This document shows positions 679 to 27,862 of a stretch of 64,000 bases of DNA, piece by piece. A program made the translations under genes and the position numbers. The notes under the pieces were generated by a model. That model did no database searches, had not been told where the DNA came from, and was given only the letters and a program-made list of their open reading frames with translations. The DNA comes from Rhizobium leguminosarum (lineage in GTDB: Bacteria > Pseudomonadota > Alphaproteobacteria > Rhizobiales > Rhizobiaceae), in assembly GCF_001652265.1 (NCBI RefSeq), contig NZ_LWBS01000121.1:54590-118589 (forward strand). Reading direction: 5' to 3'. The first letter of the stretch is position 1. Each line of letters opens with the position of its first letter.

Positions 679-1352
679 TACGCGGCCTCCTGCTTCGGAG
701 TATTATCGTTAGCCGAAACAGCCAATCCGGTGTTTGGATCCATGCCTGTTATCTTGCGATAGATGAACCTGTGGATCTTGCGCAGCATCTCCTTTTCTCT
801 CTTCAGTAGGGCGCCGCCTTTATTGACTGGCTTTATCGCCACGCCGTAAAGAAAATCTATCTGCGACACAGTCAATTTGTCCTTGTGATGCTTGATCATC
901 CAGTGGCCGAAGAACGACCACTCATTTCTAGACATATCGTTGCGTGGGTGAAGGAAGCGCTGCCCAGTTGTTGGGTCGAACCAATGCATCTCAACAACTT
1001 CTTGGCGGTTCGCTTTTGCGATATCATTCCACCAAACGCAGTTTCCGTTGTCCATCACCACTAGGTACTTGAGGTCATCACCCTCATACCGTTTTGCTTG
1101 GTCTCGCTGGCCTTCGTTCATGGGTGCAAATCCGTCTAGGTCGAAACCTTCTGACTTTACGTCAATCGGCACCCAGCCAGATCCATCCCAATTGTTCGCT
1201 ACCAAGTCAGCCCTGCCTCTCGGAGAGGCGTTGCGGAACACGTCATAACCCTGCTTCATCAGCCAAGCTGTTGCGACATGCTCATTGATCGCACCCTTTG
1301 TATTGTGGTGAATTTCAATTTTTGCGCCCGTGTCGTCCAAGACAAATGCCAC
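678..1352 (-). CDS. PD-(D/E)XK nuclease-like protein
   Basis: A 224-residue protein. Near the N-terminus it has GAINEHVATAWLMKQGYDVF, then SPRGRADLVA and, about 15 residues on, PIDVKS. This is the spacing of a PD-(D/E)XK core (helix with E, catalytic D, then D-x-K), as in small Holliday-junction-resolvase or restriction-like nucleases. I place the start at GTG 1352 because AGGAGAC lies four bases upstream, as in the shared prophage leader; a TTG at 1367 in the same frame is possible. An ACAAATTTGT operator with an embedded TTGACA lies upstream at 1420. DNA cleavage is inferred from motifs; the target is unknown. Confidence 0.7.
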   Translation of the reverse strand: MAFVLDDTGAKIEIHHNTKGAINEHVATAWLMKQGYDVFRNASPRGRADLVANNWDGSGWVPIDVKSEGFDLDGFAPMNEGQRDQAKRYEGDDLKYLVVMDNGNCVWWNDIAKANRQEVVEMHWFDPTTGQRFLHPRNDMSRNEWSFFGHWMIKHHKDKLTVSQIDFLYGVAIKPVNKGGALLKREKEMLRKIHRFIYRKITGMDPNTGLAVSANDNTPKQEAA

Positions 1353-1419
1353 TTCCGTCTCCTGCAATCATGGTGGTCGATGGTGATTGCAGGATATATG
1401 GCGGCGACAACGGAAAATA

Positions 1420-1432
1420 ACAAATTTGTCAA
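1420..1432 (-). promoter_or_regulatory. ACAAATTTGT operator fused to -35 box
   Basis: The palindrome ACAAATTTGT at 1420-1429 reads TTGACAAATTTGT on the minus strand, so a -35 box overlaps the operator and points at the nuclease gene. It overlaps the stop codon of the neighbouring exported-protein gene. It is one of seven copies in the prophage. Confidence 0.6.
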
Positions 1433-1659
1433 GCTGCCGAGCGGCAAACCTTCTTCGTCTGCTGCTGGACGGTGCGAAGATAGACGCGCAAACCGTTCTT
1501 GAGCGGTGCCGACACGTTGTTGCGCTCAGCGTCGTCCACGGCCTGCCATGCGTAGGCTTCGATGAAGCGCGACAGCTGGCAGTCGTTGCTGACGACGGCT
1601 TGTGCGTTGGCGGTCAGCGGGAGGGCAATAAGGGCTGCTGCGATAAGGATGCGGGTCAT
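1429..1659 (-). CDS. Small exported protein
   Basis: A 76-residue protein with a clear Sec signal peptide (MTRILIAAALIALPLTANA, cleavage after ANA). The mature part has about 57 residues and two cysteines (NDCQ and KKVC) that could form a disulfide. It has its own full leader (CACCACACAGAGGAGAC, four bases before ATG) and two operator/-35 sites upstream, so it is a separately controlled gene rather than part of the nuclease operon. A periplasmic location is inferred; a role such as host-envelope modification or exclusion is only a guess from the signal peptide. Confidence 0.7.
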   Translation of the reverse strand: MTRILIAAALIALPLTANAQAVVSNDCQLSRFIEAYAWQAVDDAERNNVSAPLKNGLRVYLRTVQQQTKKVCRSAA

Positions 1660-1662
1660 GTT

Positions 1663-1680
1663 GGTCTCCTCTGTGTGGTG
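1663..1680 (-). promoter_or_regulatory. Shared leader motif (CACCAC + GAGGAGAC)
   Basis: The minus strand reads CACCACACAGAGGAGACC followed by AAC and the ATG at 1659. It is a full copy of the prophage-wide leader, without an obvious hairpin in front. Confidence 0.65.
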
Positions 1681-1711
1681 CGTTTCGGTAATTATGGTTT
1701 TACAGCATTCT

Positions 1712-1757
1712 ACAAATTTGTCAAGCTGGGTATCGTCGGCTTTCTACAAATTTGTCA
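1712..1757 (-). promoter_or_regulatory. Two tandem ACAAATTTGT operator/-35 sites
   Basis: ACAAATTTGT occurs at 1712-1721 and 1746-1755. Both read TTGACAAATTTGTAGAA on the minus strand and both face the exported-protein gene starting at 1659. The doubled site suggests tight repression or two start points. Confidence 0.6.
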
Positions 1758-1819
1758 AATCCACACACAGGCTCACTGGCGCTTGCGGAGACCGCAAACT
1801 CCCGACGACGCCAGACGAC

Positions 1820-2356
1820 CTATCCGTGCGCGCTGGTGGCCAACGTCGTGGCGCGGTGGTTGTCGTTTGCCGATAGCCATCCTCGCACGAGATCTACGGA
1901 CCGCGCTGCTGCCTCTTCAGGTGTGGCAGCACGAACCAGTGCCTGCCGAGTGAACCCCAGCGCAGCCAGCAGCGGGTGACGCTTTTTCTGATCCTTGCTG
2001 ACTGGCGTCTCGGCGCCCTTGAATTCGATTAGTCCAAGCTGGCCGCCAGCGATGTATAGTCGAAGGTCATGCTCGCCGCTTGTAAGCCCGGTTGCCTTTG
2101 CCTTGACCTGCTCGCGCATCGATCGCCGAGCCGCGTTGAAGTCGCCAGCCAATGTGAACGTGCCATGGCGGACATCCTTGGCGTCATCCACGTATTCCGG
2201 CATTGCGCGCAACTGGCGCACCGCCTCGGCTTGCAGCAGCCACTCCTCGACCGGTGCCGCGCTAACCTTCACGCTCGTACCGGTCGCCGTGACGCGGGTG
2301 ACGATCCTCACTCTGCGGCCGTCGATCTTCGTGGTCTGTGTGGTGGTCTTGGCCAT
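1820..2356 (-). CDS. VRR-NUC domain nuclease
   Basis: A 178-residue protein. Residues around 85-130 contain SGEHDLRLYI, LGLIEFKGAETPVSKDQKKRH and LLAALGF. This matches the VRR-NUC family layout: catalytic D, E-x-K, then a Q and an H before a GF turn. Stand-alone VRR-NUC proteins are common in phage replication modules and act on branched DNA. The N-terminal third is basic and unassigned; the tail contains SANDN. The start is fixed by the leader CACCACCACAGGAGAC just upstream. It lies directly downstream of the candidate origin, consistent with a role in replication or recombination intermediates. Confidence 0.8.
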   Translation of the reverse strand: MAKTTTQTTKIDGRRVRIVTRVTATGTSVKVSAAPVEEWLLQAEAVRQLRAMPEYVDDAKDVRHGTFTLAGDFNAARRSMREQVKAKATGLTSGEHDLRLYIAGGQLGLIEFKGAETPVSKDQKKRHPLLAALGFTRQALVRAATPEEAAARSVDLVRGWLSANDNHRATTLATSAHG

Positions 2357-2360
2357 GTCG

Positions 2361-2466
2361 GTCTCCTGTGGTGGTGGGTGGGCGGGTGGGTGGGTGGGTG
2401 GTGGTGGGTGGAGGTGGGGGGTGGTGGTGGGTGGGTGGTGGTGGGTGGGTGGTGGTGGGTGGAGGT
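2361..2466 (-). repeat. CACC/GGTG microsatellite in the 5' UTR of the VRR-NUC gene
   Basis: About 100 bases made almost only of GGTG/GGGT units on the plus strand. In the minus-strand transcript this is a run of CACC units that merges into the normal CACCAC leader. The plus (template) strand has many G3 runs with short T spacers and could form G-quadruplexes. It looks like slippage expansion of the leader's CACCAC half. Confidence 0.75.
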
Positions 2467-2479
2467 GAATTTGTCCTTT

Positions 2480-5664: not shown

Positions 5665-5684
5665 CAAACATTCCTCATTTCTTG

Positions 5685-8815: not shown

Positions 8816-8856
8816 ATTCTCTCCTCTTGTGGTGTCCCGCGCGCTAGGTGGCGCGC
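8816..8856 (-). promoter_or_regulatory. Shared leader with hairpin (loop CACCTA)
   Basis: In the transcript a perfect GCGCGC-CACCTA-GCGCGC hairpin (8839-8856) is followed by CACCACAAGAGGAGAG and the ATG at 8815. Confidence 0.65.
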
Positions 8857-8934
8857 TAGGTGTGTGCAGTAGGCTGTACGTGAAGCGCTGTAATGTGCAG
8901 TTGAATGGACATATTTCATAAATGATACGTTGGC

Positions 8935-10850: not shown

Positions 10851-10892
10851 CAGTCTCCTCTGGTGGTGTGGTGGTTGCGCTGGTGGGGCGCA
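10851..10892 (-). promoter_or_regulatory. Shared leader with hairpin (loop CCCACCA)
   Basis: The transcript has TGCGC-CCCACCA-GCGCA (10876-10892), then a CACCACACCACCAGAGGAGAC leader and the start codon at 10850. Confidence 0.65.
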
Positions 10893-10899
10893 GTCGTGG

Positions 10900-11295
10900 T
10901 TAGGCCGATAGAAGGACGGCTAGCGCCTTCTCGTATCGTGGCAAAAGATGCTCAGCGCCGGGGCGCATATTGTCCTTAATGTCGGCAATCTTAACGCGGC
11001 GCGCAATGCCGTTTGCCTTGGCCCGCAGGATGAAATCTTCGTATGTTTCGACGGGGTTGCGCGTCAGCGCCATCACGGCAGACCAGACATCTTCGCCGAA
11101 CAGCGCCAAGATGTCGCCATGGCCAGTGGTGCAGTCCTCGACGACATCATGAAGAACCCCGACAACCATATCCTGCTCGCCGTCAAGCGATAGCATAACC
11201 CGAAGAGGGTGCAGGATATATGGCTTGCCGCTTTTGTCAGTCTGACCCGCATGAAGTTTAACGGCTAGGCTTATGGCGCTCTCAAGGTCGGTCAT
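10900..11295 (-). CDS. HD-domain phosphohydrolase, MESH1/SpoT-hydrolase-like
   Basis: A 131-residue protein. HAGQTDKSGKPYILHPLRV (about 15-33), VVGVLHDVVEDC (about 43-54, the HD pair) and VKIADIKDNM (about 101-110) are the signature motifs of the HD_4 family, which removes the 3'-pyrophosphate from (p)ppGpp and includes MESH1 and the SpoT hydrolase domain. The length fits a stand-alone hydrolase domain, slightly short. It has its own operator/-35 site and leader, so it is an independently controlled early gene. Alarmone hydrolysis is inferred from motifs; countering a host alarmone response or growth arrest would fit. Confidence 0.8.
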   Translation of the reverse strand: MTDLESAISLAVKLHAGQTDKSGKPYILHPLRVMLSLDGEQDMVVGVLHDVVEDCTTGHGDILALFGEDVWSAVMALTRNPVETYEDFILRAKANGIARRVKIADIKDNMRPGAEHLLPRYEKALAVLLSA

Positions 11296-11298
11296 GCC

Positions 11299-11335
11299 TT
11301 CTCCTCTACGTGGTGCATTCGCGCTTGGTAGGCGC
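11299..11335 (-). promoter_or_regulatory. Shared leader with hairpin (loop CTACCAA)
   Basis: The transcript has GCGC-CTACCAA-GCGC (11321-11335), then CACCACGTAGAGGAGA and the ATG of the HD gene at 11295. Confidence 0.6.
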
Positions 11336-11361
11336 AGTTGATTGCGACCTTGGTGTAAATA

Positions 11362-11376
11362 TACAAATTTGTCAAC
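11362..11376 (-). promoter_or_regulatory. ACAAATTTGT operator/-35 of the HD hydrolase gene
   Basis: The minus strand reads TTGACAAATTTGTATATTT, about 65 bases upstream of the HD start and just after the helicase stop. The -35 box is inside the operator. Confidence 0.6.
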
Positions 11377-14792: not shown

Positions 14793-14794
14793 GG

Positions 14795-14850
14795 TTGTCT
14801 CCTCTTGTGGTGTGTCGTTTCCTCGACTTTGGGGTGGCAAGTGCCGAGGA
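14795..14850 (-). promoter_or_regulatory. Shared leader with hairpin
   Basis: The transcript has TCCTCG paired with CGAGGA (14820-14850) around a loop containing GCCACCCC, then CACACCACAAGAGGAGAC and the ATG at 14792. Confidence 0.6.
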
Positions 14851-14856
14851 TTTATA

Positions 14857-17118: not shown

Positions 17119-17119
17119 A

Positions 17120-17174
17120 GGGTCTCCTCTTGTGTGGTGTGGGGTGGCCGTAGGCGGTGCAAACACCTACGGCC
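17120..17174 (-). promoter_or_regulatory. Shared leader with hairpin before dnaN
   Basis: A perfect 9-bp stem GGCCGTAGG/CCTACGGCC (17146-17174) with an 11-base loop containing GCACC precedes CACACCACACAAGAGGAG, ACCCT and the ATG. The segment GAGGAGACCC here is complementary over ten bases to the open segment of the candidate sRNA at 22880. Confidence 0.65.
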
Positions 17175-17177
17175 CTA

Positions 17178-17195
17178 CTGGTGCGCTAACACCAG
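17178..17195. other. Perfect 6-bp hairpin
   Basis: CTGGTG-CGCTAA-CACCAG lies just beyond the dnaN leader hairpin. There is no T tract, so it is not a typical terminator. It may be a processing or stability element. Confidence 0.4.
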
Positions 17196-18050: not shown

Positions 18051-18054
18051 TTTC

Positions 18055-18099
18055 GCTCCTCTTGGTGGTGAATGGCGGGCCGCTGGTAGACGACCCGCC
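18055..18099 (-). promoter_or_regulatory. Shared leader with hairpin
   Basis: GGCGGG pairs with CCCGCC (18074-18099) around a loop containing CTACCAG, followed in the transcript by CACCACCAAGAGGAG and the ATG at 18050. Confidence 0.6.
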
Positions 18100-18105
18100 T
18101 ATTTT

Positions 18106-18318
18106 TTAGTCGTCAGAGTCGTTGGGATAAGTTTCGAAATAGATCTCGTCATAGGCTTCATCCTCGCCTACGCACTCGTCCTGAGTATCCCAATCAGAAT
18201 CCTCCAGCGCCCCAATGATGGGGCGATAGATTGCCTTTCGGCTATCCTTGTCGGCCACCACCGGCTTTACGCCGGCAATGACCTTGCTCATGATTTCGCT
18301 TCCAGATGCCCAGCCCAT
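18106..18318 (-). CDS. Small acidic phage protein, 70 aa
   Basis: Reads MGWASGSEIMSKVIAGVKPVVADKDSRKAI at the start and ends in a strongly acidic tail (DWDTQDECVGEDEAYDEIYFETYPNDSDD). ATG 18318 overlaps the DUF669 stop as TGATG. A DNA-mimic or SSB-partner role is conceivable from its acidity and its place beside ssDNA genes, but this is conjecture. Confidence 0.6.
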   Translation of the reverse strand: MGWASGSEIMSKVIAGVKPVVADKDSRKAIYRPIIGALEDSDWDTQDECVGEDEAYDEIYFETYPNDSDD

Positions 18319-18947: not shown

Positions 18948-18950
18948 GCG

Positions 18951-18973
18951 TAGTCTCCTTGTTGTGGTGTGGT
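18951..18973 (-). promoter_or_regulatory. Shared leader motif before the DUF669 gene
   Basis: The transcript reads CCACCACCACACCACAACAA, then GGAGAC, four bases and the ATG at 18947. The CACCAC part is extended and overlaps the stop region of the upstream ATPase gene. Confidence 0.55.
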
Positions 18974-18978
18974 GGTGG

Positions 18979-19752
18979 TTAGGCTGCGACGCCGGTAGGC
19001 GCAGGCATGTATTTCGAAAGCTCGTCCCAGCCTTTGCCCTTCTTGTAAATGATGGCAGGCGGCGTCGAATAGCGGGACTTGGCAAGGAAGCCAGGCCGCT
19101 CCTCGAGGTGGATCTGACGCTCGCCGCTGCCTTCGGCGTGCGCCACCTTCTTATTGAAACCGACTTCCTTCTCCTTCAGGGTGTGCCGGTAGTTGACGAA
19201 GCCGACGAACTGCGCCGTTTCCTGCACCAGCGCCGAGGCGCGCTTGTGCAGCTTGATGCCGTAACGCGAGTACGGATCGCTAGTCGGGCTGTCGAATCTG
19301 GATATCTCGGTATGAGCCAGAAGAACGACAGCAATGCCGGCGTCACGGAGAGCCTGCAGGCCGCCGAGCAGTTCGCGCCATTCGGTGTCGGCCTCAACGT
19401 AGCCCTTTCCGAATCCTGCATCCTCAATGCTGTTCAGGCCGAGCCGAGCGCTGGTGGCGCGCCATACAAGATTTTCGGCGCCATCGACCGAGTCGAGAAT
19501 TAACGTCTTGCGGTCATGCTCAGCGGTAAGCAGCCAACCGATGACATCAAGGATGTCTTCGAAGCTCTCGGCGCCACCTGGTGAGGGCATGTCGACGCCG
19601 TCGGGCGGTTCCTCGCCCATGGTCGGCAGGTAGTAGGGATCGGGGAACTCCGATGCCAGCAAGGTCTTGCCGACGCCGTGAACGCCGTAGATCACCCCGA
19701 TGGGCGGCTTGTTGTTTTTGGTACTGTTTAGGCTACCAAGCGAAATTGCCAA
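18979..19752 (-). CDS. Sak4-like RecA-fold ATPase (single-strand annealing)
   Basis: A 257-residue ATPase. Walker A GVIYGVHGVGKTLLA lies near residues 18-32, Walker B TLILDSVDG near 85, and AVVLLAHTEI is the following sensor strand. It matches the AAA_24/Sak4 group of phage recombinases that anneal or exchange strands with an SSB partner. I place the start at TTG 19752 because AAGGAGAAGAC lies just upstream; no ATG is available downstream of it before the Walker motif. The DUF669 gene follows within about 30 bases. Confidence 0.82.
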   Translation of the reverse strand: MAISLGSLNSTKNNKPPIGVIYGVHGVGKTLLASEFPDPYYLPTMGEEPPDGVDMPSPGGAESFEDILDVIGWLLTAEHDRKTLILDSVDGAENLVWRATSARLGLNSIEDAGFGKGYVEADTEWRELLGGLQALRDAGIAVVLLAHTEISRFDSPTSDPYSRYGIKLHKRASALVQETAQFVGFVNYRHTLKEKEVGFNKKVAHAEGSGERQIHLEERPGFLAKSRYSTPPAIIYKKGKGWDELSKYMPAPTGVAA

Positions 19753-20366: not shown

Positions 20367-20368
20367 AA

Positions 20369-20406
20369 TAATCTCCTCTTAGCCGTGCGGTTGGTGGCCG
20401 CACGGC
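20369..20406 (-). promoter_or_regulatory. Shared leader with hairpin (loop CCACCAA)
   Basis: The transcript has GCCGTGCGG-CCACCAA-CCGCACGGC (20382-20406), a perfect 9-bp stem, followed directly by TAAGAGGAGA and the GTG at 20366. The loop itself supplies the CACCA motif that is elsewhere in the linear part. Confidence 0.7.
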
Positions 20407-20429
20407 GTTGCTGTGGTGGCTGTTGGTGG

Positions 20430-21452
20430 TTAGGCGGCGCGAAGAACCGTTTTCTTCACGACTTCCTCGACGACATCAGCGATCTTGCTATCCGCAAGAA
20501 CGAAAACGCCGAACTCCTGGCCGGGATGCAGTAGCGCGAGGCGGCTGGCCTCGGTAGTGGCCGCTTCCTGGCTGGCGTGTACAACGGGCCGTGTACTTGG
20601 AAGGGCGACGCCGTTTTCGATGAGGGCGACGATGGCGGGGGTGGTGGTGAACAGCGCAGGAAACTGGGCTTCTTCGGCGCGAAGCCACCATTCGTTGTCG
20701 TTGGTTCCGTGGCCGTCATCGAAACCTTCGAACCGCACGATGTACTGCGCTTCCGACTTGTCATCGCCGATGATGACACCGAAGAGACCTTTGGTTGGGC
20801 CGTCTTCCGCAGAGACAATACGATCACCCACCTTGAACTTGGCCGGCGCAGCGTTGTCGTTGCTGGCAATAACGGTGGGCTCGTCGACCCATTCGGCGAT
20901 GAGGTCGATATTGCGATCCTTGAAATGGTGGGTGCCATCCCGATTGAACAGTTTGGAGTTGCCATCGACTTGCGCGATTGACAGATCTTCACCCGGCGCT
21001 GCACCATAGTCTTCCATAGGCCCGACCTTCCGACCGTCGCGCGTCTTGTAGTAGCGGCCGGCGGTGATGGTGAGGGGTGTGGGTGCTGCGAACTGATCGC
21101 TGCGCAGGTACTGGTGGTGGCCAAGCAGCATTACGGCATGCCCACCAGCGCTATCTTTGCAGGTGCTGGTGACGGTGTACTCCTTGCCGACTTCATATTT
21201 CTTGATCGGCGATCCTCCCGGCGTAATGTTGTCTGTGACGACCACACGATCGCCGACCTTCGGCTGCCATTCAGCGGAGGCAACTGGCACGAGTTCGATA
21301 CGGCTGAAATTGCAGCTGTGATTGACGGTTTTGTGGGTGACAACAGCGCCATCCTCCGCCAAGAAGCTGACTATGGTGCCCTCGTCACCCTTCTTGGCGT
21401 AACCATAATCCATCACGAACCGCACTCTATCGCCAACCTTAAACTTTCCCAT
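20430..21452 (-). CDS. Triple SH3-like (KVGDRV) repeat protein
   Basis: A 340-residue protein built of repeated small barrels. KFKVGDRVRF at residue 3, PKVGDRVVVTDN near 64 and KFKVGDRIVSAED near 205 begin three units, each with following G/T-rich strands. Between them is a GRYYKTRDGRKVGPM strand set near 132. The C-terminal 90 residues are helical and differ. KOW/SH3-like barrels bind nucleic acid or protein; which applies here is unknown. The start overlaps the previous stop as TAATG. Confidence 0.65.
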   Translation of the reverse strand: MGKFKVGDRVRFVMDYGYAKKGDEGTIVSFLAEDGAVVTHKTVNHSCNFSRIELVPVASAEWQPKVGDRVVVTDNITPGGSPIKKYEVGKEYTVTSTCKDSAGGHAVMLLGHHQYLRSDQFAAPTPLTITAGRYYKTRDGRKVGPMEDYGAAPGEDLSIAQVDGNSKLFNRDGTHHFKDRNIDLIAEWVDEPTVIASNDNAAPAKFKVGDRIVSAEDGPTKGLFGVIIGDDKSEAQYIVRFEGFDDGHGTNDNEWWLRAEEAQFPALFTTTPAIVALIENGVALPSTRPVVHASQEAATTEASRLALLHPGQEFGVFVLADSKIADVVEEVVKKTVLRAA

Positions 21453-21739
21453 TACGCTGCTCCTTCCGTTGGTGTGCCCGGCGTAAAAACCCGACGCTTG
21501 GTGAAGTCGACCTGAATGACGTTGTCGTCCACGGGCTGCTCTGCCCCTGCGGGCGGCACCTCGTCATCTTCGACGATCTCAAGCTCCCACTCGTGGAACG
21601 ACAGAACGGCAAGCGACGGGCTGACGCGGATGTAGATGAGAGATCCGCCAATGGCGATGACGACGCCGAAAACGTTGGTGTTCATCTTGTGCTGGACGAC
21701 GTCGCCGACACTGATGCAGTCGCACTCAGCGCAGCTCAT
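21452..21739 (-). CDS. Small barrel phage protein, 95 aa
   Basis: MSCAECDCISVGDVVQHKM followed by FGVVIAIGGSLIYIRVS resembles one unit of the SH3-like repeats in the next protein, with an N-terminal cysteine cluster (CAECDC) and an acidic tail. It is coupled on both sides (ATGA to the upstream gene, TAATG to the downstream one). It may share a function with the repeat protein. Confidence 0.62.
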   Translation of the reverse strand: MSCAECDCISVGDVVQHKMNTNVFGVVIAIGGSLIYIRVSPSLAVLSFHEWELEIVEDDEVPPAGAEQPVDDNVIQVDFTKRRVFTPGTPTEGAA

Positions 21740-22077
21740 GCCGCCACCTGCAGTTCATCCAGCCGCAACTCGCTGGCGGAAAGCGCGACCTCGGCAACGT
21801 CAAGGGTGGGGATGCGCTTGACAGACACGGGAACGACGCCACTCCAAGTGGAGCAGCCACCGTTGTGCGGCGTCATCTGCGTGGTGACGTTGGGATTGTT
21901 ATCGTTGGCCGCCGCGACGTTCGCAGCCCTTGATTGACGCAAACCCAACTCTCTCCGCAGGCGCTGGTAAACGGTGATGGGCTTGAGGCGATATCTGGAC
22001 GCAATGCTGGCGTTGCTTTCGCCGCTCAGTCTGCGCGCATGCATATCGGCCAGCATCTCGCTGGTAATGATTGTCAT
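21736..22077 (-). CDS. Helix-turn-helix protein, first gene of the leftward early operon
   Basis: A 113-residue protein. Residues 1-45 (MLADMHARRLSGESNASIASRYRLKPITVYQRLRREL) form a homeodomain-like or resolvase-type helix-turn-helix. The rest contains AANDNNPN and is unstructured. It is the first gene transcribed leftward from the promoter divergent to repressor 1, the position of Cro or an early activator. The start at 22077 is fixed by CACCACAGAGGAGAC. Confidence 0.7.
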   Translation of the reverse strand: MTIITSEMLADMHARRLSGESNASIASRYRLKPITVYQRLRRELGLRQSRAANVAAANDNNPNVTTQMTPHNGGCSTWSGVVPVSVKRIPTLDVAEVALSASELRLDELQVAA

Positions 22078-22080
22078 ATT

Positions 22081-22127
22081 GTCTCCTCTGTGGTGATGTC
22101 GGCAAAACGGTGAACTTGCCAACCGAC
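22081..22127 (-). promoter_or_regulatory. Shared leader with hairpin at the start of the early operon
   Basis: GTCGG and CCGAC (22098-22127) enclose a loop containing TTCACCG, followed in the transcript by ATCACCACAGAGGAGAC and the ATG at 22077. Confidence 0.6.
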
Positions 22128-22132
22128 TGTCA

Positions 22133-22162
22133 TAGTGTTATCGATTTACAAATTTGTCAAAG
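22133..22162 (-). promoter_or_regulatory. Leftward early promoter with repressor-1 operator
   Basis: The minus strand reads TTGACA, 17 bases, CACTAT. The operator palindrome ACAAATTTGT (22148-22157) shares bases with the -35 box. It lies between the early operon and the divergent repressor gene, so one bound dimer could control both. Confidence 0.65.
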
Positions 22163-22175
22163 TGTAGCGGTAAAG

Positions 22176-22781
22176 ATGGCCCCCTCTAAATCAAGATTCG
22201 CGCAGATGTTGGAGACCGAGCAAATGCGACTTGGTTATTCCGACCGACACGTTGCTGTTGGCCACGGATGGCTGCAGCAAACCTTCAGCCGGTGGAAAAT
22301 GGGAAGTCTCCCTCGTCCGAACATGTATGCGGCTATCGGTCAGTTCCTTGGCGTGCCCACAGACACGGTCAAGGAGCTCGTCGAGGAGGCTAGGGAATCT
22401 ATGGGAAACGAAAAAGTCCCAAAGGTTTCGGTGTTCGCGACATCCTCCGTCTACGGCAAGATGGCCGACAGGAAGGAGGGGAAGTTTAAATTTGCTGTGC
22501 CCCTCCCAGCGGGACGGTATGCAATCCAGATGGATACGCCAATTATGGAACCAGCATTGATTTTCGGTTCCAAGGCATGGGTGGATCCATCTGTGTGGCC
22601 CAAGGTGGGCAATGAAGTTTTGGTTCACGCCAGAAATGGAGTTGCCTGGATCGGTCGACTGGAAAGTCACGACAACGATACTGCGGTCATCAGCCAGTAT
22701 GCTTTTGAGGACAAAATTACCGTCCGCAATGTCGAAGCAATCCACACAATTGTCCTTTCTGAGCGCGTGACGTCAAAATAA
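22176..22781 (+). CDS. Phage repressor 1 (HTH plus degenerate S24-like domain)
   Basis: A 201-residue protein starting MAPSKSRFAQMLETEQMRL at ATG 22176. The N-terminal half has a Cro/CI-type helix-turn-helix (SDRHVAVGHGWLQQTFSRWKMGSLPRPNMYAAIGQFL). The C-terminal half keeps the S24 fold pattern (MDTPIMEPALIFGSKAWVDP, KVGNEVLV) but the serine of the usual DSM motif is replaced (PIM) and the lysine position reads WIGRL instead of a K. It probably dimerises but cannot self-cleave. ACAAATTTGT sites flank the gene at 22148 and 22788, fitting autoregulation. That this protein binds those sites is inferred. Confidence 0.8.
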   Translation: MAPSKSRFAQMLETEQMRLGYSDRHVAVGHGWLQQTFSRWKMGSLPRPNMYAAIGQFLGVPTDTVKELVEEARESMGNEKVPKVSVFATSSVYGKMADRKEGKFKFAVPLPAGRYAIQMDTPIMEPALIFGSKAWVDPSVWPKVGNEVLVHARNGVAWIGRLESHDNDTAVISQYAFEDKITVRNVEAIHTIVLSERVTSK

Positions 22782-22784
22782 AGG

Positions 22785-22813
22785 TTGACAAATTTGTTGA
22801 AAACGGAGTACAC
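22785..22813 (+). promoter_or_regulatory. Rightward promoter with operator, ahead of candidate sRNA
   Basis: TTGACA at 22785-22790, 17 bases, then GTACAC (weak -10). The operator ACAAATTTGT (22788-22797) overlaps the -35 box. It begins four bases after the repressor stop. Confidence 0.5.
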
Positions 22814-22940
22814 GAGAGTCGTTTCGGGTGGTGCCGAAATATCGAACGCTCTCGTGCAAAGCCATGCGGTTGGTCCCGCGGGTCTCCTCCGAGAAGTTAG
22901 TAGGCAGAGGGGGATGGGGCTACACTCATCCCCCCTTTTT
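22811..22940 (+). ncRNA. Candidate prophage small RNA complementary to the shared leader
   Basis: No convincing coding frame occupies this 160-bp gap. CACGAGAG (22811) pairs perfectly with CTCTCGTG (22849); inside it TTTCGG-GTGGTG-CCGAAA makes a second perfect hairpin with loop GTGGTG. An open segment GGGTCTCCTCC follows at 22880, and the unit ends in a strong terminator. GTGGTG is complementary to CACCAC and GGTCTCCTC to GAGGAGACC, the two halves of the leader in front of many prophage genes. Estimated length about 125 nt. Regulation by base pairing is a hypothesis. Confidence 0.55.
22909..22940 (+). terminator. Rho-independent terminator
   Basis: Stem GGGGGATG/CATCCCCC with a ten-base loop (GGGCTACACT) followed by C and five T. 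It works for the plus strand only: no T tract follows on the minus strand. Confidence 0.85.
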
Positions 22941-22941
22941 G

Positions 22942-23397
22942 TTATTTCTCCGTAATTAGAAACAGCGGCGCAACGACGCCTACCACTTCTCGCATAGCGT
23001 CGACCGCATCGGTTAGCGCCTCTAGCGGAGCAAGGCCACGACCAAATGATGACAGCCGTTTCCCCTCCTTGGCTTGGCGAGAAATTTCGAACTGGAACAC
23101 AGTCTTGTCGGACCTGTGGGGGATACGGGTAACAGCAATATCCATTCCGCTCGCGACAAGTTTTCCCATCAGCGCCTCAACTGTCTTATCCTGCTCCGCC
23201 TTGATTTCGTCCACGACCGCAAACATGCGGTCGCTGTCTGCTGTAGCTTTCAGCCGGCTCTCCGGAATTCCGCGACCGATAAGATCGATATACGCGTCTT
23301 CTATCTCAACGATGCGCGCCGTGCTCAGGCCGCACATTCTGGACATCAGTTCTACGCTGATGCCGTATTTTTCGCGCTCAAACTTATTGAATCTCAT
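22942..23397 (-). CDS. Phage hypothetical protein, 151 aa
   Basis: The N-terminus MRFNKFEREKYGISVELMSRMCGLSTARIVEIEDAYIDLIGRG looks helical with an HTH-like turn; the C-terminal half has DIAVTRIPHRSDKTVFQFEISRQ strands. The leader CCACCACAGAGAAGGAGAC sets the start. It is the last gene of the unit that begins at 25387, ending two bases from the sRNA terminator. Function unknown. Confidence 0.6.
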   Translation of the reverse strand: MRFNKFEREKYGISVELMSRMCGLSTARIVEIEDAYIDLIGRGIPESRLKATADSDRMFAVVDEIKAEQDKTVEALMGKLVASGMDIAVTRIPHRSDKTVFQFEISRQAKEGKRLSSFGRGLAPLEALTDAVDAMREVVGVVAPLFLITEK

Positions 23398-23401
23398 TTC
23401 A

Positions 23402-23420
23402 GTCTCCTTCTCTGTGGTGG
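23402..23420 (-). promoter_or_regulatory. Shared leader motif
   Basis: The transcript reads CCACCACAGAGAAGGAGACT, then GAA and the ATG at 23397. It is a slightly longer variant, with AGAA between the two halves. Confidence 0.55.
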
Positions 23421-23594
23421 TTAGCGCCGGCGACCGAAGATCGCGGCGAACGAAAACTTGTCAAATGTGTCGTAGTTCTCTTTCATGAACTTCGCGGCCC
23501 AACTCTCTCCAAATGCCTCAGCCAGCTTCGCGTGGATGTCGCTTTTTGCTTCGGTGATTTTGTCTGCAATCGCAGTCATTGTTGATTTCTTCAT
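23421..23594 (-). CDS. 57-aa phage protein
   Basis: Reads MKKSTMTAIADKITEAKSDI, then HAKLAEAFGESWAAKFMKEN and YDTFDKFSFAAIFGRRR, a single helical mini-protein with a basic end. ATG 23594 overlaps the upstream stop as TGATG, which supports that it is translated. No family recognised. Confidence 0.62.
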   Translation of the reverse strand: MKKSTMTAIADKITEAKSDIHAKLAEAFGESWAAKFMKENYDTFDKFSFAAIFGRRR

Positions 23595-24124: not shown

Positions 24125-24126
24125 AG

Positions 24127-24150
24127 TGTCTCCTCATGTGGTGGTGATGG
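24127..24150 (-). promoter_or_regulatory. Shared leader motif after the repeat array
   Basis: The transcript reads CCATCACCACCACATGAGGA, then GACACT and the ATG at 24124. The array's last unit head (CATCTCAACG) lies seven bases upstream of it. Confidence 0.55.
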
Positions 24151-24157
24151 TTAGGTG

Positions 24158-24790
24158 CGTTGAGATGATGGGCGCAGCGACATGTTGTGACGCGGATCGC
24201 GGCGTTGCAGGGCGCAGTGGTTCCTGCGAACCGCAAGTTGCCCGAAGGCAACCGACGCTTAGCAGGTATTCGTTGAGATGCCTTTCGTCGCGACGGGCTG
24301 CCTCGTGACGCGCAAAGATGCGAAACCATTGTGGCGGGACAAGCCCACCAATGACCGCACGAATGCGGTCGCTGCTGAGTTTGGTATTCGTTGAGATGCT
24401 ATACGGAGCGTAAAGACGCGGTTCGCAGCGGGTCGTTGACCGGAGTCGTTGGCAGTTTCCCACCACAAGGCGGCTCTCAAAAGAGCCGACCAAGCTAGGA
24501 AACGTTGAGAAGAGGCGCGCTGCGCTGCGTAAAGACGCAGAGCCATAAGGTTGGCGGTTGCCCACCGCTATAAGTCTTCTTGGCTGATAATGCTGGGCAA
24601 CGGTTGTCATGGTAGTTCCTTGCGTTGAGATGAGGCACGTAACGACGCGGAAATGCGTGAGGCGGGACGAAGTGGAAAGCAATGCACTCCATGAACTGGC
24701 TCCCGAAAGAGCCAGTCTTGCAGAGCGTTGATGTGCGGAACGATGCGCTAAGCTGCGAAGCGCCGTGTAGCGCAGTCGTGTCGTTGTAAA
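24158..24790 (-). repeat. Six-unit array (period about 115 bp) of hairpin-bearing units
   Basis: The head CGTTGAGATG or a close variant starts at 24158, 24271, 24389, 24503, 24623 and 24726: spacings 113, 118, 114, 120 and 103. Read on the minus strand, most units hold a hairpin with a CTTT-type loop (for example CTGCGT-CTTT-ACGCAG) and a second one with a UUCG-type loop (GTTGCC-TTCG-GGCAAC, GACCGCA-TTCG-TGCGGTC, GGCTCT-TTTG-AGAGCC). Stems differ while loops are kept. The gap of about 660 bases has no credible gene. It is best read as a transcribed structured RNA array. Confidence 0.6.
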
Positions 24791-25387: not shown

Positions 25388-25389
25388 GT

Positions 25390-25406
25390 TAGTCTCCTCT
25401 GTGGTG
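25390..25406 (-). promoter_or_regulatory. Shared leader motif
   Basis: The transcript reads TTCACCACAGAGGAGACT, then AAC and the ATG at 25387. No hairpin directly in front. Confidence 0.6.
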
Positions 25407-25439
25407 AATGGTCGTTGCGTTGACTTGCGGGGAGGAGAG

Positions 25440-25625
25440 CTGCGGTGAGTAGTGGTGTGCAGCGCCGGTATCCTTTGTGGGCTCCCCACAAGAAAGCGCT
25501 TTTGCGTTTTCCTGACGGGAGCCGGGGCGCTATGCCCCGGCATCTTCGGTCGTCATCTTCTTCTGGGCGGTCCGCGCCCCTTCGGCGCTACTTGTCTTCT
25601 GTCTTTGTCTTTCGCGTTATTCCGC
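25440..25625 (-). other. Structured untranslated region between promoter and first gene
   Basis: This 340-bp gap (25388-25728) has no gene. It holds several strong hairpins, among them GCCGGGGC/GCCCCGGC (near 25530), CTTGTGGG/CCCACAAAG (near 25483) and GCGCC-GAAG-GGGCGC (near 25590). They would lie in the long 5' leader of the transcript from the leftward promoter at 25741. Confidence 0.45.
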
Positions 25626-25723
25626 ATTGTCATTCTCCAAAATTGGGGGTTGTCGAGAAATCTGTTGTTGTGAAGTGTTGCTCTTTGAAACGTTCGGCTA
25701 CCTGTTTACGAATGTGGTTTTAC

Positions 25724-25785: not shown

Positions 25786-25791
25786 TGTGCC

Positions 25792-26484
25792 ATGACAAAA
25801 CTCGCCGAGATAACAAAGAAAAAGAGGGCCGAACTTGCCATCAACCAAACCGAGTTTGGTCGCAGGTTCGGTGCGAGCCAGCAGACCGTCTCTGATTTAG
25901 AGGACGGCAAGAAGGCATATCCGCGCGCATGGAAGAAGCTAGCCGCGTTGCTGGGTATCAACGAATACGAAATCACAGACCTGATGGATGAAGCGGCGGC
26001 AGATATCGGCAAGGATCAGCGCAGGCCCCTCGATTTACCGGCGCGCCGGTTTAGGTCGGCTCAGAGTAACCCAGTCATAATGGAGGGGATGCACGCCGAT
26101 GTTCACATCCTCGGCCAGGCGGTCGGCGGAGATGATGGGGAATACGTATTCAACGGAGAGGTGATTGGATATATGCCGAGGCCGTCAGTGCTGGCCGGAG
26201 TTGCACATCCATACGCAGTGTATGTGGCTGGTACTTCTATGGCTCCGCGATTCGTTCAAGAAGAAATTGTTTTCGTCGATCCAAACATTATGCCGAAACG
26301 CGGCGACATCGTTATTATTCAGTTGCGCCCTTCCGATGAGGCGATGCCGTCACGCGGCTTCTTAAAGCAATTTTGGGGTTGGACGCCTAGCGATCTATTG
26401 GTCCGCCAGATCAACCCGGAAAAGGTGATTCGGTATCCTCGTGTCGACGTTGATAAGGTTCATGTGGTCGTCTACCCGACTTAA
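25792..26484 (+). CDS. Phage repressor 2 (XRE HTH plus S24 peptidase)
   Basis: A 230-residue CI/LexA-like protein. Residues 1-55 are an XRE helix-turn-helix (RAELAINQTEFGRRFGASQQTVSDLEDGKKAYP). The C-terminal S24 domain has VAGTSMAPRFV (catalytic Ser), DPNIMPKRGDIVII and SRGFLKQFWG (catalytic Lys), so it can probably self-cleave on RecA activation. The start ATG 25792 is only seven bases past the -10 hexamer and has no ribosome site, indicating a leaderless mRNA as in lambda cI. Operators ATTCGGTA/TACCGATT lie on both sides of the gene. Confidence 0.85.
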   Translation: MTKLAEITKKKRAELAINQTEFGRRFGASQQTVSDLEDGKKAYPRAWKKLAALLGINEYEITDLMDEAAADIGKDQRRPLDLPARRFRSAQSNPVIMEGMHADVHILGQAVGGDDGEYVFNGEVIGYMPRPSVLAGVAHPYAVYVAGTSMAPRFVQEEIVFVDPNIMPKRGDIVIIQLRPSDEAMPSRGFLKQFWGWTPSDLLVRQINPEKVIRYPRVDVDKVHVVVYPT

Positions 26485-26537
26485 TTCGGTAAGATACCGA
26501 TTTAGACGTTGACTGTATTTCGGTAAAGCATTATACA
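26484..26537 (+). promoter_or_regulatory. Rightward promoter with repressor-2 operators
   Basis: TTGACT (26509-26514), 17 bases, TATACA (26532-26537) is the best promoter in the region. ATTCGGTAAGATACCGATT (26484-26502) lies just upstream and TTTCGGTAAA lies between the two hexamers, so a repressor bound here would block it. Confidence 0.72.
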
Positions 26538-26545
26538 TCTCCTCA

Positions 26546-26584
26546 CAGCCGCACCATGGCTGGGCACCGCTTGAGGAGACCGAC
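26546..26584 (+). promoter_or_regulatory. Shared leader with hairpin at the probable 5' end
   Basis: CAGCC-GCACCAT-GGCTG (26546-26562) begins about nine bases after the -10 box, hence at the very 5' end of the RNA, and is followed by TTGAGGAGACC and the ATG at 26585. It ties the hairpin to a transcript start. Confidence 0.6.
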
Positions 26585-26791
26585 ATGCTCGGCAGAAGAT
26601 TTATCGACCCGGAAGAATTGCTGGCAGTAGAAGCCGCCGCCATTGTGGCTGGCAGCGTTGAGCCCTTCCGCAGACCTGACCACAAAGCAAAACGCCACCC
26701 GAAGCCGCGCAACGTTGATTGCCGCGGCCGCTTTGCGTTGCGTCACCAGAAGCCCGGCCGCGTGCTGGCCGAGATGGGCGGTGAGGAATGA
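26585..26791 (+). CDS. Small basic phage protein, 68 aa
   Basis: Reads MLGRRFIDPEELLAVEAAAI, then VAGSVEPFRRPDHKAKRHPK and PRNVDCRGRFALRHQKPGRV. It is strongly basic in the second half. It is the first gene behind the rightward promoter and leader, and its stop overlaps the next start as ATGA. No known domain; the opposite-strand frame is also open here, so this call rests mainly on leader and coupling. Confidence 0.6.
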   Translation: MLGRRFIDPEELLAVEAAAIVAGSVEPFRRPDHKAKRHPKPRNVDCRGRFALRHQKPGRVLAEMGGEE

Positions 26792-27066
26792 GTGTGCACA
26801 CACCGGGCCCGTGGAAATTTAAGACGGATCACCTCAAGGGTGATTGCGGTATCCATGCGGAGGGTACGGGAATATTCGCCGAAGCATTCACGGATATCCG
26901 ACATGCCGGCGAAGGCAATAGGACCGAGGCACTGGCGAATGCCCGTCTGATCGCCGCCGCTCCCGACTTACTGGACGCCCTCAAGGGCCTTTTGTCCAGC
27001 CCAACGCACGAAGGATGGCAAGGGGAAGCCCGCGCAGCCATCGCCAAGGCGGAGGGCAGATCATGA
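26788..27066 (+). CDS. HTPGPW-family phage protein, second copy
   Basis: A 92-residue protein with SVHTPGPWKFKTDH at the start and EALANARLIAAAPDLLDALKGLL in the middle, the same family as the gene at 10542 but clearly diverged. Coupled to both neighbours by ATGA. Function of the family is unknown. Having one copy in each of the oppositely directed early operons suggests each operon needs its own. Confidence 0.75.
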   Translation: MSVHTPGPWKFKTDHLKGDCGIHAEGTGIFAEAFTDIRHAGEGNRTEALANARLIAAAPDLLDALKGLLSSPTHEGWQGEARAAIAKAEGRS

Positions 27067-27281
27067 CCAACCACATCGACACCAGCAAGCTCGACGAGCC
27101 AATCCTCGACGACAGAGACCCCGTTTACGCCGACTATATGTATGTCGCCGACGGGAAGGTCGTACTTAGCGACTGGCACGCCATCACGGCTCGCGAATTC
27201 AAGATCCGCATCGACGCCAAGGAAATCCGCCGCTGCGATATCTACGGCCGGTCGGAACAGTTTTTCGGGAGGGCCGCATGA
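27063..27281 (+). CDS. Phage hypothetical protein, 72 aa
   Basis: MTNHIDTSKLDEPILDDRDP followed by VYADYMYVADGKVVLSDWHAITAREFKIRIDAKEIRRCDIYGR. The motif DPVYADYMYVADGKV suggests a small beta-hairpin protein. ATGA overlaps at both ends place it firmly in the rightward operon. No known family. Confidence 0.65.
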   Translation: MTNHIDTSKLDEPILDDRDPVYADYMYVADGKVVLSDWHAITAREFKIRIDAKEIRRCDIYGRSEQFFGRAA

Positions 27282-27430
27282 TGACCAACCGCGCTGTAGC
27301 CCGCCTGCCCTACGACGACGACCGCATCACGCTTCGCGGCTTTCTTTATGACGCGCTCGCCGCCATATCTGCTGGCAGCTTCGTCTGGGCCGTTTCCGTC
27401 TGGCTGCCGTACATCGCGCAGCATCAGTAA
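27278..27430 (+). CDS. 50-aa membrane peptide
   Basis: Starts MMTNRAVARLPYDDDRITLR and continues GFLYDALAAISAGSFVWAVSVWLPYIAQHQ, one membrane helix at residues 21-45. ATG overlaps the preceding stop as ATGA. A TTGCCC-AA-GGGCAA hairpin follows the stop directly. Confidence 0.6.
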   Translation: MMTNRAVARLPYDDDRITLRGFLYDALAAISAGSFVWAVSVWLPYIAQHQ

Positions 27431-27444
27431 TTGCCCAAGGGCAA

Positions 27445-27525
27445 TAGAGCGCGGTCGGTGATGATGGCTGCAACTATTCGTTTCCGTGCCGCGCTCTAAC
27501 CAATCACCACAGAGGATGACCAGCC
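27445..27525 (+). promoter_or_regulatory. Shared leader with 10-bp stem
   Basis: TAGAGCGCGG (27445-27454) pairs perfectly with CCGCGCTCTA (27489-27498), followed by AATCACCACAGAGGATGACC and the ATG at 27526. This copy has a larger loop and a GAGGATGAC variant. Confidence 0.6.
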
Positions 27526-27609
27526 ATGAAAGAACTACTGGTGAATTTTGCGTTTATCTTCTTCGCCCACGGATCGTTGTGGGCAGCCGTCTGCCTAACC
27601 GGCGGCTGA
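27526..27609 (+). CDS. 27-aa hydrophobic peptide
   Basis: MKELLVNFAFIFFAHGSLWA followed by AVCLTGG. A full leader with hairpin stands before it, which is the main support. The product would be a single-span membrane peptide. Its stop lies inside the hairpin of the next leader, so its translation would open that hairpin; a leader-peptide role is possible. Confidence 0.5.
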   Translation: MKELLVNFAFIFFAHGSLWAAVCLTGG

Positions 27610-27649
27610 TCTACCAACCAGCCGACCACCACCACAAGAGGAGACACAC
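27603..27649 (+). promoter_or_regulatory. Shared leader with hairpin (loop ATCTACCAAC)
   Basis: CGGCTG-ATCTACCAAC-CAGCCG (27603-27624) then ACCACCACCACAAGAGGAGA, CACAC and ATG 27650. It is the clearest full copy on the plus strand. Confidence 0.7.
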
Positions 27650-27862
27650 ATGACCAACGATATCAGACCAGCATACAACGGCACGGGCACCGAAGTCGTC
27701 GACAGCCTGACGCCCGCCACCGATATCCCCGCAGGCCGACTGTCCTCCGTTGCGGACTGGCATAGCCAGTCGAGCAAGCGCGCTCGCCGTCATGCAGCGA
27801 TCGCCAGCAAGTTGCGCGAAGTCGCAAGGATGATCGCCAACGACAATCGTGTGCAGCCATGA
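27650..27862 (+). CDS. Phage hypothetical protein, 70 aa
   Basis: MTNDIRPAYNGTGTEVVDSL at the start, a basic helix SSKRARRHAAIASKLREVAR in the second half, and the recurrent NDN near the end. Full leader with hairpin upstream. The stop overlaps the lipoprotein start as ATGA. No known family. Confidence 0.65.
   Translation: MTNDIRPAYNGTGTEVVDSLTPATDIPAGRLSSVADWHSQSSKRARRHAAIASKLREVARMIANDNRVQP

Follow-up and report, generated by a model that had tools for sequence, protein, structure and literature searches.

Our results suggest that the genes of 16-3-like temperate phages that carry a common leader before their starts are under the control of one phage-encoded small RNA (sRNA), made from the immunity region, which would act in trans by pairing with these leaders and repressing their translation. 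From the sequences compared, we consider this likely. The starting point was a 64,000-nucleotide stretch of Rhizobium leguminosarum DNA, hereafter the window (C121:54590-118589 of an 8.18-Mb assembly, C121 being contig NZ_LWBS01000121.1), the first 29.7 kb of which read as the right part of a prophage that ends after an integrase gene (28226-29395). The leader is composed of a small hairpin with ACCA or CACC in its loop, the word CACCAC and a Shine-Dalgarno (SD) sequence, typically GAGGAGAC. What comparison of sequences establishes are the leaders, the covariation of their stems, the conservation and synteny of the sRNA gene, the complementarity of the two and their co-occurrence.

The helicases closest to that of the window belong to the rhizobial phages AP-16-3, NV1.1.1, RHph_TM3_3_14B, 16-3, RHph_X2_25 and RHph_X2_26 (41-49% identity). 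A phmmer comparison of window positions 1-30000 matched many proteins to those of Rhizobium phage 16-3, including homologues of the C repressor, p070, p072-p074, the helicase, the Cas4-like exonuclease and the DnaN-like and sigma genes. Judged by its non-virion genes, the virion genes being to the left of the window, the prophage is a member of the 16-3-like temperate phages.

Leaders in 16-3-like phages

The leader is real and family-wide in these phages. A regular expression (regex) describing it matched 13 times in 16-3, 11 in AP-16-3, 13 in NV1.1.1, 14 in TM3_3_14B, 14 in the 63.0 of 68.8 kb covered of X2_25, and 0 in X2_26. A scan of IMG/VR with CACCACN{0,4}GAGGAGACN{0,6}ATG returned at least 120 stretches, several of which hold 4-10 leaders each under a looser regex. 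In the window, CACCACNNNNGAGGAGAC with up to three mismatches has 20 matches, against 5.6 +- 2.5 in shuffled sequences, none of 100 shuffles reaching 20. Within the host genome the leader is almost restricted to the prophage: CACCACN{0,8}GAGGAGAC has 12 matches in 8.18 Mb, of which 11 (10 distinct sites) lie on C121 at 15985-82234 and one elsewhere. Given the span of these matches, the prophage probably reaches well to the left of the window.

The initial annotation had placed copies of the leader before 18 starts on both strands of the window. A purine-rich SD was present at all 18, in the place and on the strand given, with GAGGAGAC exact at nine and variants such as AAGGAGAC, GAGGAGAT and GAGGATGA at the remainder. 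The CACCAC it described was recovered within 22 nt of the SD at 15 starts and was missing at 1352, 20366 and 26585; at 1352, ACCACC sits inside the hairpin loop instead. The hairpins with ACCA or CACC in the loop held at 11 of the 18 starts, where at least five pairs close a loop with ACC (1352, 8815, 10850, 11295, 17118, 18050, 18947, 20366, 22077, 26585 and 27650). Its further claim that most genes lacking the leader are coupled to an upstream gene was borne out in annotated relatives, where the motif precedes 55 of 162 starts separated by more than 12 nt from the previous gene and 6 of 192 coupled starts (6 loci, 5 annotated phages). The same counts imply that the majority of non-coupled starts also lack a leader. 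In 16-3, two motif-bearing starts lie in the 1-30 kb part (p029 and p046, neither an annotated virion gene) and 11 in the 30-60 kb part, and the leaders of the named relatives mostly precede non-coupled genes outside the virion genes.

The hairpins were analysed in 157 leaders from loci with at least three regex matches, after removal of near-duplicates (303 instances were found overall, 190 of them in such loci; L049, L091, L118 and L090 among them look unrelated). A hairpin of at least five pairs is present in 129 of the 157, compared with 77.2 +- 5.1 in dinucleotide shuffles (largest 89 in 100 sets), and the loop of the best hairpin contains ACC in 67, compared with 18.3 +- 3.5 (largest 27). 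Among the 119 leaders that contain ACCA, 46 have a strong stem around it, versus 8.9 +- 2.8 (largest 17 of 200) when the ACCA core was kept and right flanks were swapped between leaders. Random stretches with ACCA had a strong stem in 15 of 239 cases, and a TGGT loop on the opposite strand had one in 1 of 9. At 183 SD sites without a nearby ACCAC, a hairpin was found in 23 of the 57 that contain ACCA, and in 16-3 and its relatives some hairpins abut the SD with CACCAC absent; such sites indicate that the modules of the leader are separable.

The stems were also recovered when they played no part in the search. Genome contigs scanned for loop, CACCAC and SD, with a pattern blind to the stem, gave 38 loci; a clear stem (score of at least 8) was present in 18 of the 20 Rhizobiales hits, assigned by record title and including one (L155) seemingly inside a gene, with many different stem sequences, and in none of the 18 others (largest score 6). 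In alignment A3, made of 28 hairpins (25 distinct) selected for at least four pairs and a 7-nt loop, so that the percentage paired is partly circular, all seven pairs show two-sided changes, with a covariation of 0.861 against 0.200 +- 0.038 in shuffled and at most 0.212 in slid alignments. Around a constant ACCA loop, the stems thus change through compensatory pairs, and they do so in hits chosen by sequence alone as well. This agrees with the selection on RNA structure that the initial annotation had proposed, both in the 157 leaders and in the stem-blind set; covariation appeared in the larger alignment whose failure to covary had been named as one half of its refutation. A promoter element was ruled out as the nature of the leader, because the stems vary freely and the element adjoins the SD.

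The leader might simply be a good context for ribosome binding, made up of an unstructured C/A-rich stretch, a strong SD and a hairpin acting as insulator. Its composition and its position next to the SD at non-coupled starts fit this idea, which nonetheless does not predict the ACCA loop on the sense strand (46 of 119 strong stems, far above permutation), the AC that often follows AGGAG, or the complementary RNA described below. The exact leader is also nearly missing from the rest of the host genome. We regard it as very improbable.

A conserved candidate RNA downstream of p070

The initial annotation had named an RNA-binding protein or an sRNA as possible partners of the leader. The second kind is supported by a candidate, a conserved phage RNA gene complementary to it. 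A search for sense-strand TGGTG in non-coding stretches between same-strand genes of five phages gave about a dozen stretches, one of which recurs, between the p070 helix-turn-helix (HTH) gene and the C repressor gene in AP-16-3, NV1.1.1 and TM3_3_14B; the same locus read in 16-3, X2_25 and the window also carries the candidate RNA. All six copies have the box TTGACAAATTTG in front, a GUGGUG-loop hairpin whose stem differs between copies, and GUCUCC followed by UAGUA, and five of the six have a later GUGGUG. In the relatives, GUGGUG, the complement of CACCAC, stands in two hairpin loops, and GUCUCC is the complement of GGAGAC; copies of the L028 and L071 type have the second GUGGUG within the terminator loop. 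Beyond these six copies (window, 16-3, AP-16-3, NV1.1.1, TM3_3_14B and X2_25), the TTGACAAATTTG box belonged to the search pattern.

A test free of selection on the RNA itself strengthens the complementarity. Loci fetched only for their leaders contained 14 p070-like genes by tblastn, two of them cut off at the locus end. Within 320 nt downstream of the gene, at least two GTGGTG and at least one GTCTCC occur in 12 of 12 (one a near-duplicate). The last 320 nt of the p070-like gene have GTGGTG in 1 of 12 and GTCTCC in none, and the next 320 nt beyond the downstream stretch have them in 0 and 1 of 12. As to synteny, a p070-like gene ends within 400 nt upstream on the same strand in 46 of 47 sRNA loci, near-duplicates included.

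The pattern TTGACAAATTTGN{24,40}GTGGTG found 92 stretches in IMG/VR. GTCTCCT is present in 40 of 99 pattern instances, in whose loci leaders stand at 4.03 per 10 kb, compared with 0.36 in those of the other 59, near-duplicates being included in the comparison. Instances with both the pattern and GTCTCCT made up alignments A1 (26 copies, without the window copy and near-identical copies) and A2 (29, without the window copy and two near-identical ones). The longest invariant blocks of the 26 copies are TGTGGTG, GTCTCCT, AGTA and GTGGTG, next to shorter or scattered positions; since the search pattern contained GTGGTG and only copies with GTCTCCT were retained, the constancy of the first GTGGTG and of GTCTCCT is partly built in, and only the second GTGGTG and AGTA are invariant free of selection. 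The AGTA block, mostly within UAGUA, follows GTCTCCT and matches no recognisable element of the leader. The consensus fold of the 26 sequences has 20 pairs, 14 of which show two-sided changes, uncorrected for kinship. As expected of an sRNA, the candidate combines a covarying structure with most conserved segments that are complementary to its putative targets.

A covariance model, R1, was built from 29 copies and first run over 60 chosen sources. It detects the RNA in each of the five named phages with leaders (four contributed model sequences) and in L040, L161 and L202, and matches diverged copies in six leader-bearing loci (L028, L071, L089, L095, L106 and L112; E 1e-10 to 1e-12); RHph_X2_26, the relative with 0 leaders, gave only a chance-level score of 10.9 bits. 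In 50 whole viral records (L003-L053 minus L048, from the IMG/VR leader scan), 16 have four or more leader matches, overlapping ones being counted twice, and 14 of these 16 give an R1 match at E<1e-6, as does 1 of the 34 others; eight of the 14 had given model sequences, picked regardless of leaders, and six had not, two of these being near-identical to contributors. Among the 34 leader-poor records, G710 has the sRNA with one leader match, and two others have weak matches at E 0.003-0.006. In host genomes R1 matched 7 of 297 at the family level and 5 of 397 at the order level (one shared, three partial), with a regex leader inside five of the seven family loci of 3.1 kb each. Five further loci (L173, L181, L193, L221 and L248) have a variant RNA after TTGACAAATTTG, with GTGGTG-type loops, no GTCTCC and 0-2 regex leaders per locus.

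In the window, the candidate trans-acting sRNA gene is unannotated and lies at 22812..22941 (presumed ends) on the plus strand, the strand of the upstream HTH repressor-like gene, a homologue of 16-3 p070 (22071..22781, plus strand; phmmer 2e-60), whose true start is probably about 22176. It is preceded by a promoter-like region (22785..22808, plus strand) with TTGACA, the operator-like ACAAATTTG and a -10 box assigned by eye, which a consensus promoter scan of the window did not list. All elements of the RNA are on the plus strand, in the order GUGGUG loop, UUGGU loop, GUCUCCUC, UAGUA and terminator. The first hairpin, TTTCGG-GTGGTG-CCGAAA (22822..22839), has a loop complementary to the leader CACCAC with a predicted unpaired probability of 0.98. 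The second, GCGG-TTGGTC-CCGC (22866..22879), has a loop complementary to the leader-loop ACCAA (TTGGT, 0.99 unpaired). GTCTCCTC, the complement of the leader GAGGAGAC, follows at 22882..22889, and the intrinsic terminator, a 10-pair stem and then CTTTTT, at 22909..22941. R1 matches 22817-22942 with 21.7 bits (E=4.7e-4 in 0.9 Mb; fold z=-2.15). An R1 search of the host's own genome, with 150 of 2704 candidates scored, did not list the window copy, and neither did the searches of family and order host genomes. Rfam 15 gave 0 matches in the window, and its best match to the sRNA stretch of TM3_3_14B had E=0.14 and 16.7 bits against a cut-off of 44.

The locus might also be something other than an RNA gene. 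GTCTCC and GTGGTG are leader words seen from the other strand, and AGGAG with a start codon 3-9 nt on occurs in 10 of 26 copies, so an unannotated gene on the opposite strand might have its leader here, or the stretch might act as a DNA element. Yet none of the 26 copies matches the leader regex from the other strand, the stems covary, and the window copy has its terminator in the sRNA direction. The spacing between the promoter box and GTCTCCT (78-97) shifts in steps of single bases, which makes the stretch unlikely to be coding. We give this explanation hardly any credence.

Alternatively, a phage or host RNA-binding protein might read ACCA/CACC in the loop and near the SD, the sRNA being a second regulator or antagonist. 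Leaders of the CsrA/RsmA type carry a core GGA in a hairpin loop and next to the SD, and their reader is a protein. The rhizobial leaders resemble them in having the same short core once in a loop and once in a linear site adjoining the SD, and in having separable modules, and differ in that the core is ACCA and a complementary RNA was found. Candidate readers exist: the window and the five phages with leaders share p072 and the SH3-like p073 and p074, which X2_26 lacks; p076 is likewise shared by leader-bearing phages and absent from X2_26. In the window the p072-p074 homologues occupy 20430-22077 and comprise a small protein that ends in a conserved PHNGGCST tail, one that is SH3-like and one that changes fast and has repeated FKVGDRV units; a Pfam scan gave nothing for p072 and p073 and only SH3_12 for p074. 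A protein reader would not, however, account for a conserved RNA whose blocks complement the leader together with its SD, and an RNA serving as protein sponge would carry the leader's own sequence rather than its complement. We set a protein partner aside, because the sRNA explained more, and judge it quite improbable. Hfq, S1 or Era would be conceivable readers of ACC, and RNase P or tRNA-like mimicry by way of the CCA-like loop would be a further conceivable reading.

Proposed pairing with the leaders and its consequences

How the candidate sRNA would act on the leaders can be sketched from their complementary elements. Each leader would offer up to three contacts, the ACCA hairpin loop, the single-stranded CACCAC and the SD GAGGAGAC, and the sRNA would offer their complements, one GUGGUG and a second GUGGUG (UUGGU in the window) in loops, with the anti-SD stretch GUCUCC(UC) between or after them. 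Loop contacts would probably start the pairing, and the anti-SD stretch would then cover the SD. Pairing at the SD usually represses, and with their SD covered the genes would be repressed at translation start.

The timing of this repression may be set by a shared operator. TTGACAAATTTG is exact at seven window sites (1421, 1713, 1747, 5682, 11364, 22149 and 22785), among them the p070/p072 intergenic stretch and the sRNA, and with up to two mismatches it has 16 matches (8 near-palindromic sites, each on both strands) against 2.9 expected. The seven sites are probably the regulon of one repressor. As the box is common to the sRNA and several leader genes, one repressor probably controls both, and p070 would be the natural candidate. 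After derepression, leader mRNAs and sRNA would appear together, and the sRNA would damp the leader genes as a set, either as negative feedback with a delay or as a second immunity layer. Transcription of the sRNA, its pairing, the repression and its timing are what we infer from these arrangements.

Computed pairing energies are consistent with such contacts when restricted to the exposed pieces of the sRNA. In the five phages these pieces score -39 to -42.5 kcal/mol with leaders and -27 to -32 with other starts, and in the window -41.3 and -32.3; the advantage of leaders amounts to 9-12 kcal/mol in the phages and window alike, and leaders also do better than with shuffled pieces, in a test that is near-circular, having been run after a null result for the whole sRNA, with hand-chosen pieces and with leaders defined by the motif itself. 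Ranked in this way, leader genes make up 9 of the top 11, 8 of the top 11, 10 of the top 13 and 11 of the top 12 in four phages. A hint of sRNA-leader co-evolution comes from L202, the sole phage noticed with a changed anti-SD (GCCTCC instead of GTCTCC), where 3 of 11 leaders retain the AC that follows AGGAG, a proportion that elsewhere reaches 191 of 256 (p=0.0018, post hoc).

Several results weigh against repression by such an sRNA or against parts of the case for it. Duplex prediction with the whole sRNA (duplexfold) fails to separate leaders (-35.9) from other starts (-38.5), which we attribute to the G-rich terminator, and in the piece-wise ranking of AP-16-3 only 5 of the 12 top genes are leader genes. 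The order of elements in the sRNA differs from that of one continuous antiparallel duplex. Single-sequence folding leaves the elements only moderately exposed, with mean unpaired probabilities of 0.48, 0.51 and 0.43 where whole molecules have 0.31-0.44, and the window anti-SD, in the copy folded alone, is unpaired with a probability of 0.20. The window copy is a weak model match and is rearranged, and seven of the 18 window starts (1659, 2356, 14792, 23397, 24124, 25387 and 27526) lack a hairpin with ACC in the loop. The way in which copies were selected weakens the argument from their alignment. Two leader-rich records, G695 (9 leader matches) and G699 (8), had no R1 match, p070-like protein or GTGGTGN{25,55}GTCTCC; these records may be incomplete, the protein search used the TM3_3_14B sequence, and empty results of this kind prove little. 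Conversely, two family genomes (L268 and L269) have the sRNA and no regex leader within 3.1 kb. Finally, p077, a leader gene of 16-3, is reported to be scarce in an hfq mutant of Sinorhizobium meliloti (PMC3484140). This suggests a link to Hfq, and its sign is opposite to that of a simple Hfq-dependent repressor.

The p077 result counts in favour of an sRNA that pairs with the leaders and activates or times them, by opening SDs sequestered in cis, as at 26585, or by guiding RNase III processing between genes. An upstream CTCCTC able to pair with the leader's own SD in 8 of 157 leaders and the promoter box common to the sRNA and some targets point the same way. However, the other 149 leaders have no CTCCTC box, the anti-SD would cover a free SD, and pairing there generally represses. 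We think activation unlikely and favour repression by the sRNA. We are evenly divided on the broader proposition that a large set of the non-virion genes forms one RNA regulon across this family of temperate rhizobial phages, with a single sRNA, 11-18 leaders per genome and three contacts (a loop-loop kiss, CACCAC and the SD).

Features of the window, known systems and meaning

Most leaders of the window are on the minus strand. Hairpin, CACCAC and exact GAGGAGAC are combined before 10850 (10851..10910; TGCGC-CCCACCA-GCGCA), 17118 (17119..17178; GGCCGTAGGT-GTTTGCACC-GCCTACGGCC) and 22077 (22078..22160; GTTGGCAAG-TTCACCGT-TTTGCCGAC, with TTGACAAATTTG upstream). Hairpin and CACCAC are followed by GAGGAGAG before 8815 (8816..8875; GCGCGC-CACCTA-GCGCGC), by GAGGAGAA before 11295 (11296..11375; TGCGC-CTACCAA-GCGCG, with TTGACAAATTTG upstream), by GAGGAGCG before 18050 (18051..18110; GGCGGGTCGT-CTACCA-GCGGCCCGCC) and by AAGGAGAC before 18947 (18948..19007; CTGCG-CCTACCGGCGT-CGCAG). 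The leader of 1352 (1353..1412) is TCCTGCAATCA, a loop with ACCACCA and TGATTGCAGGA, its stem holding part of the SD. In that of 20366 (20367..20426), GCCGTGCGG-CCACCAA-CCGCACGGC stands directly before GAGGAGAT with no CACCAC between, an arrangement that has counterparts in 16-3, AP-16-3, NV1.1.1 and TM3_3_14B.

The minus-strand leaders whose hairpin lacks ACC or is missing are those of 1659 (1660..1724; CACCAC and GAGGAGAC downstream of TTGACAAATTTG), 2356 (2357..2416; a CACC-rich tract and AGGAGAC), 14792 (14793..14852; CACCAC and GAGGAGAC, with hairpin GTCG-AGGAAA-CGAC), 23397 (23398..23457; CACCAC and AAGGAGAC), 24124 (24125..24184; CACCACCAC and GAGGAGAC) and 25387 (25388..25447; CACCAC and GAGGAGAC, with an upstream CTCTCCTC able to pair with the SD in cis). 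On the plus strand, the leader of 27526 (27466..27525) has CACCAC and GAGGATGA without an ACC hairpin, and that of 27650 (27590..27649) has CGGCTG-ATCTACCAAC-CAGCCG, CACCAC and GAGGAGAC.

The plus-strand leader of 26585 (26530..26584) has an inner hairpin, CAGCCG-CACCA-TGGCTG, between TCTCCTCA and TGAGGAGA, which are able to sequester the SD in cis. A leader with such pairing precedes the first gene divergent from the C repressor in the window and in L028, L071, L025, L040, L038, L092 and L264. The pairing, of TCTCCTCA with TGAGGAGA or of CTCCTCTTG with CAAGAGGAG, can close the SD around the inner ACC-loop hairpin, and its arms co-vary between phages. By their sequence, these cis-closing leaders (26585, and the eight of 157 with their own CTCCTC) read as a built-in version of the anti-SD of the sRNA. 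Another phage (L090, contig G298) has 11 CACCAC leaders, in seven of which the SD continues with TC (AGGAGTC); no sRNA carrying the matching change turned up in the portion searched.

Elsewhere in the window, the prophage encodes a primase, methyltransferases, an SF2-type helicase, a Cas4-like exonuclease, a DnaN-like processivity factor, Sak4 and a sigma-like factor. An 87-nt stretch at 2612-2698 equals its own reverse complement at 79% and forms a large palindrome adjoining the stop end of the primase gene. The 650 nt at 24134-24790 lack a convincing gene and contain several minus-strand copies of CATCTCAACG or near forms, each followed by a different sequence; the same word is present in the leader of 24124. 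After the integrase, about 29700-29742, a stretch resembles the remnant of a tRNA 3' end and is probably the attachment site; ARAGORN found no intact tRNA there.

To our knowledge, the nearest named motif is SAS/ESAS of the cluster K mycobacteriophages. In the consulted parts of PMC3203893 and PMC12699233, it is likewise a family-wide repeat over the SD, with 11-19 copies per genome in the non-structural half, roughly half of them preceded by an inverted repeat. SAS/ESAS differ in being built on the 13-bp GGGATAGGAGCCC, where the rhizobial leaders have CACCAC, a short spacer and GAGGAGAC or a variant; in the same parts, their inverted repeats have little support for RNA pairing and DNA-binding proteins are favoured, whereas the rhizobial stems covary and a complementary candidate RNA exists. 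In their restriction to the non-structural half the 16-3 leaders agree with SAS/ESAS; in the 13-bp sequence they do not.

Phages are no strangers to regulatory RNA, P1/P7 C4 and P4 CI being phage immunity RNAs. The sRNAs covered in the consulted part of a 2025 review (P22 sar, lambda OOP and aQ, VpdS, PreS, 24B_1 and DicF; PMC12197685) are also phage-made regulators, several at the lysis-lysogeny decision, and sar interferes with the translation start of its target. They are mostly described there as regulators of individual phage genes or of genes of the host, and none as acting on a repeated leader of a dozen genes of its own phage (PMC12197685). The candidate also differs from cis-antisense RNAs of the sar and OOP type in being encoded away from its putative targets, downstream of p070-like genes and on the repressor-gene strand, with none of 26 copies opposite a leader by regex. 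The nearest mechanism by analogy, on the consulted part of PMC2837412, is that of Staphylococcus aureus RNAIII, one RNA with several targets that forms a duplex over the SD of coa mRNA and a separate loop-loop contact; RNAIII is not a phage RNA and is not known to resemble the candidate in sequence, the comparison being one of mechanism, and the rhizobial targets share one leader within the same phage. By word search, the main text of the AP-16-3 genome paper mentions no hairpin, leader, ribosome, sRNA, small RNA or antisense (PMC10460002), and no mention of the leader/sRNA pair was found in the searched listings of Creative Commons-licensed PMC papers, a scope to which the older subscription-journal papers on 16-3 do not belong.

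Overall, the classical model phage 16-3 of S. meliloti and its relatives appear to carry a dedicated sRNA and a matching leader before a dozen genes. The pair would provide a two-part system in a phage and host that are used in the laboratory, would supply sRNA-leader pairs from nature and could be compared with the SAS/ESAS of mycobacteriophages. A whole set of viral genes may thereby be controlled simultaneously by one small RNA, and the RNA regulon, if true, would place RNA-level immunity or an early-to-late switch beside the protein repressors of these phages.

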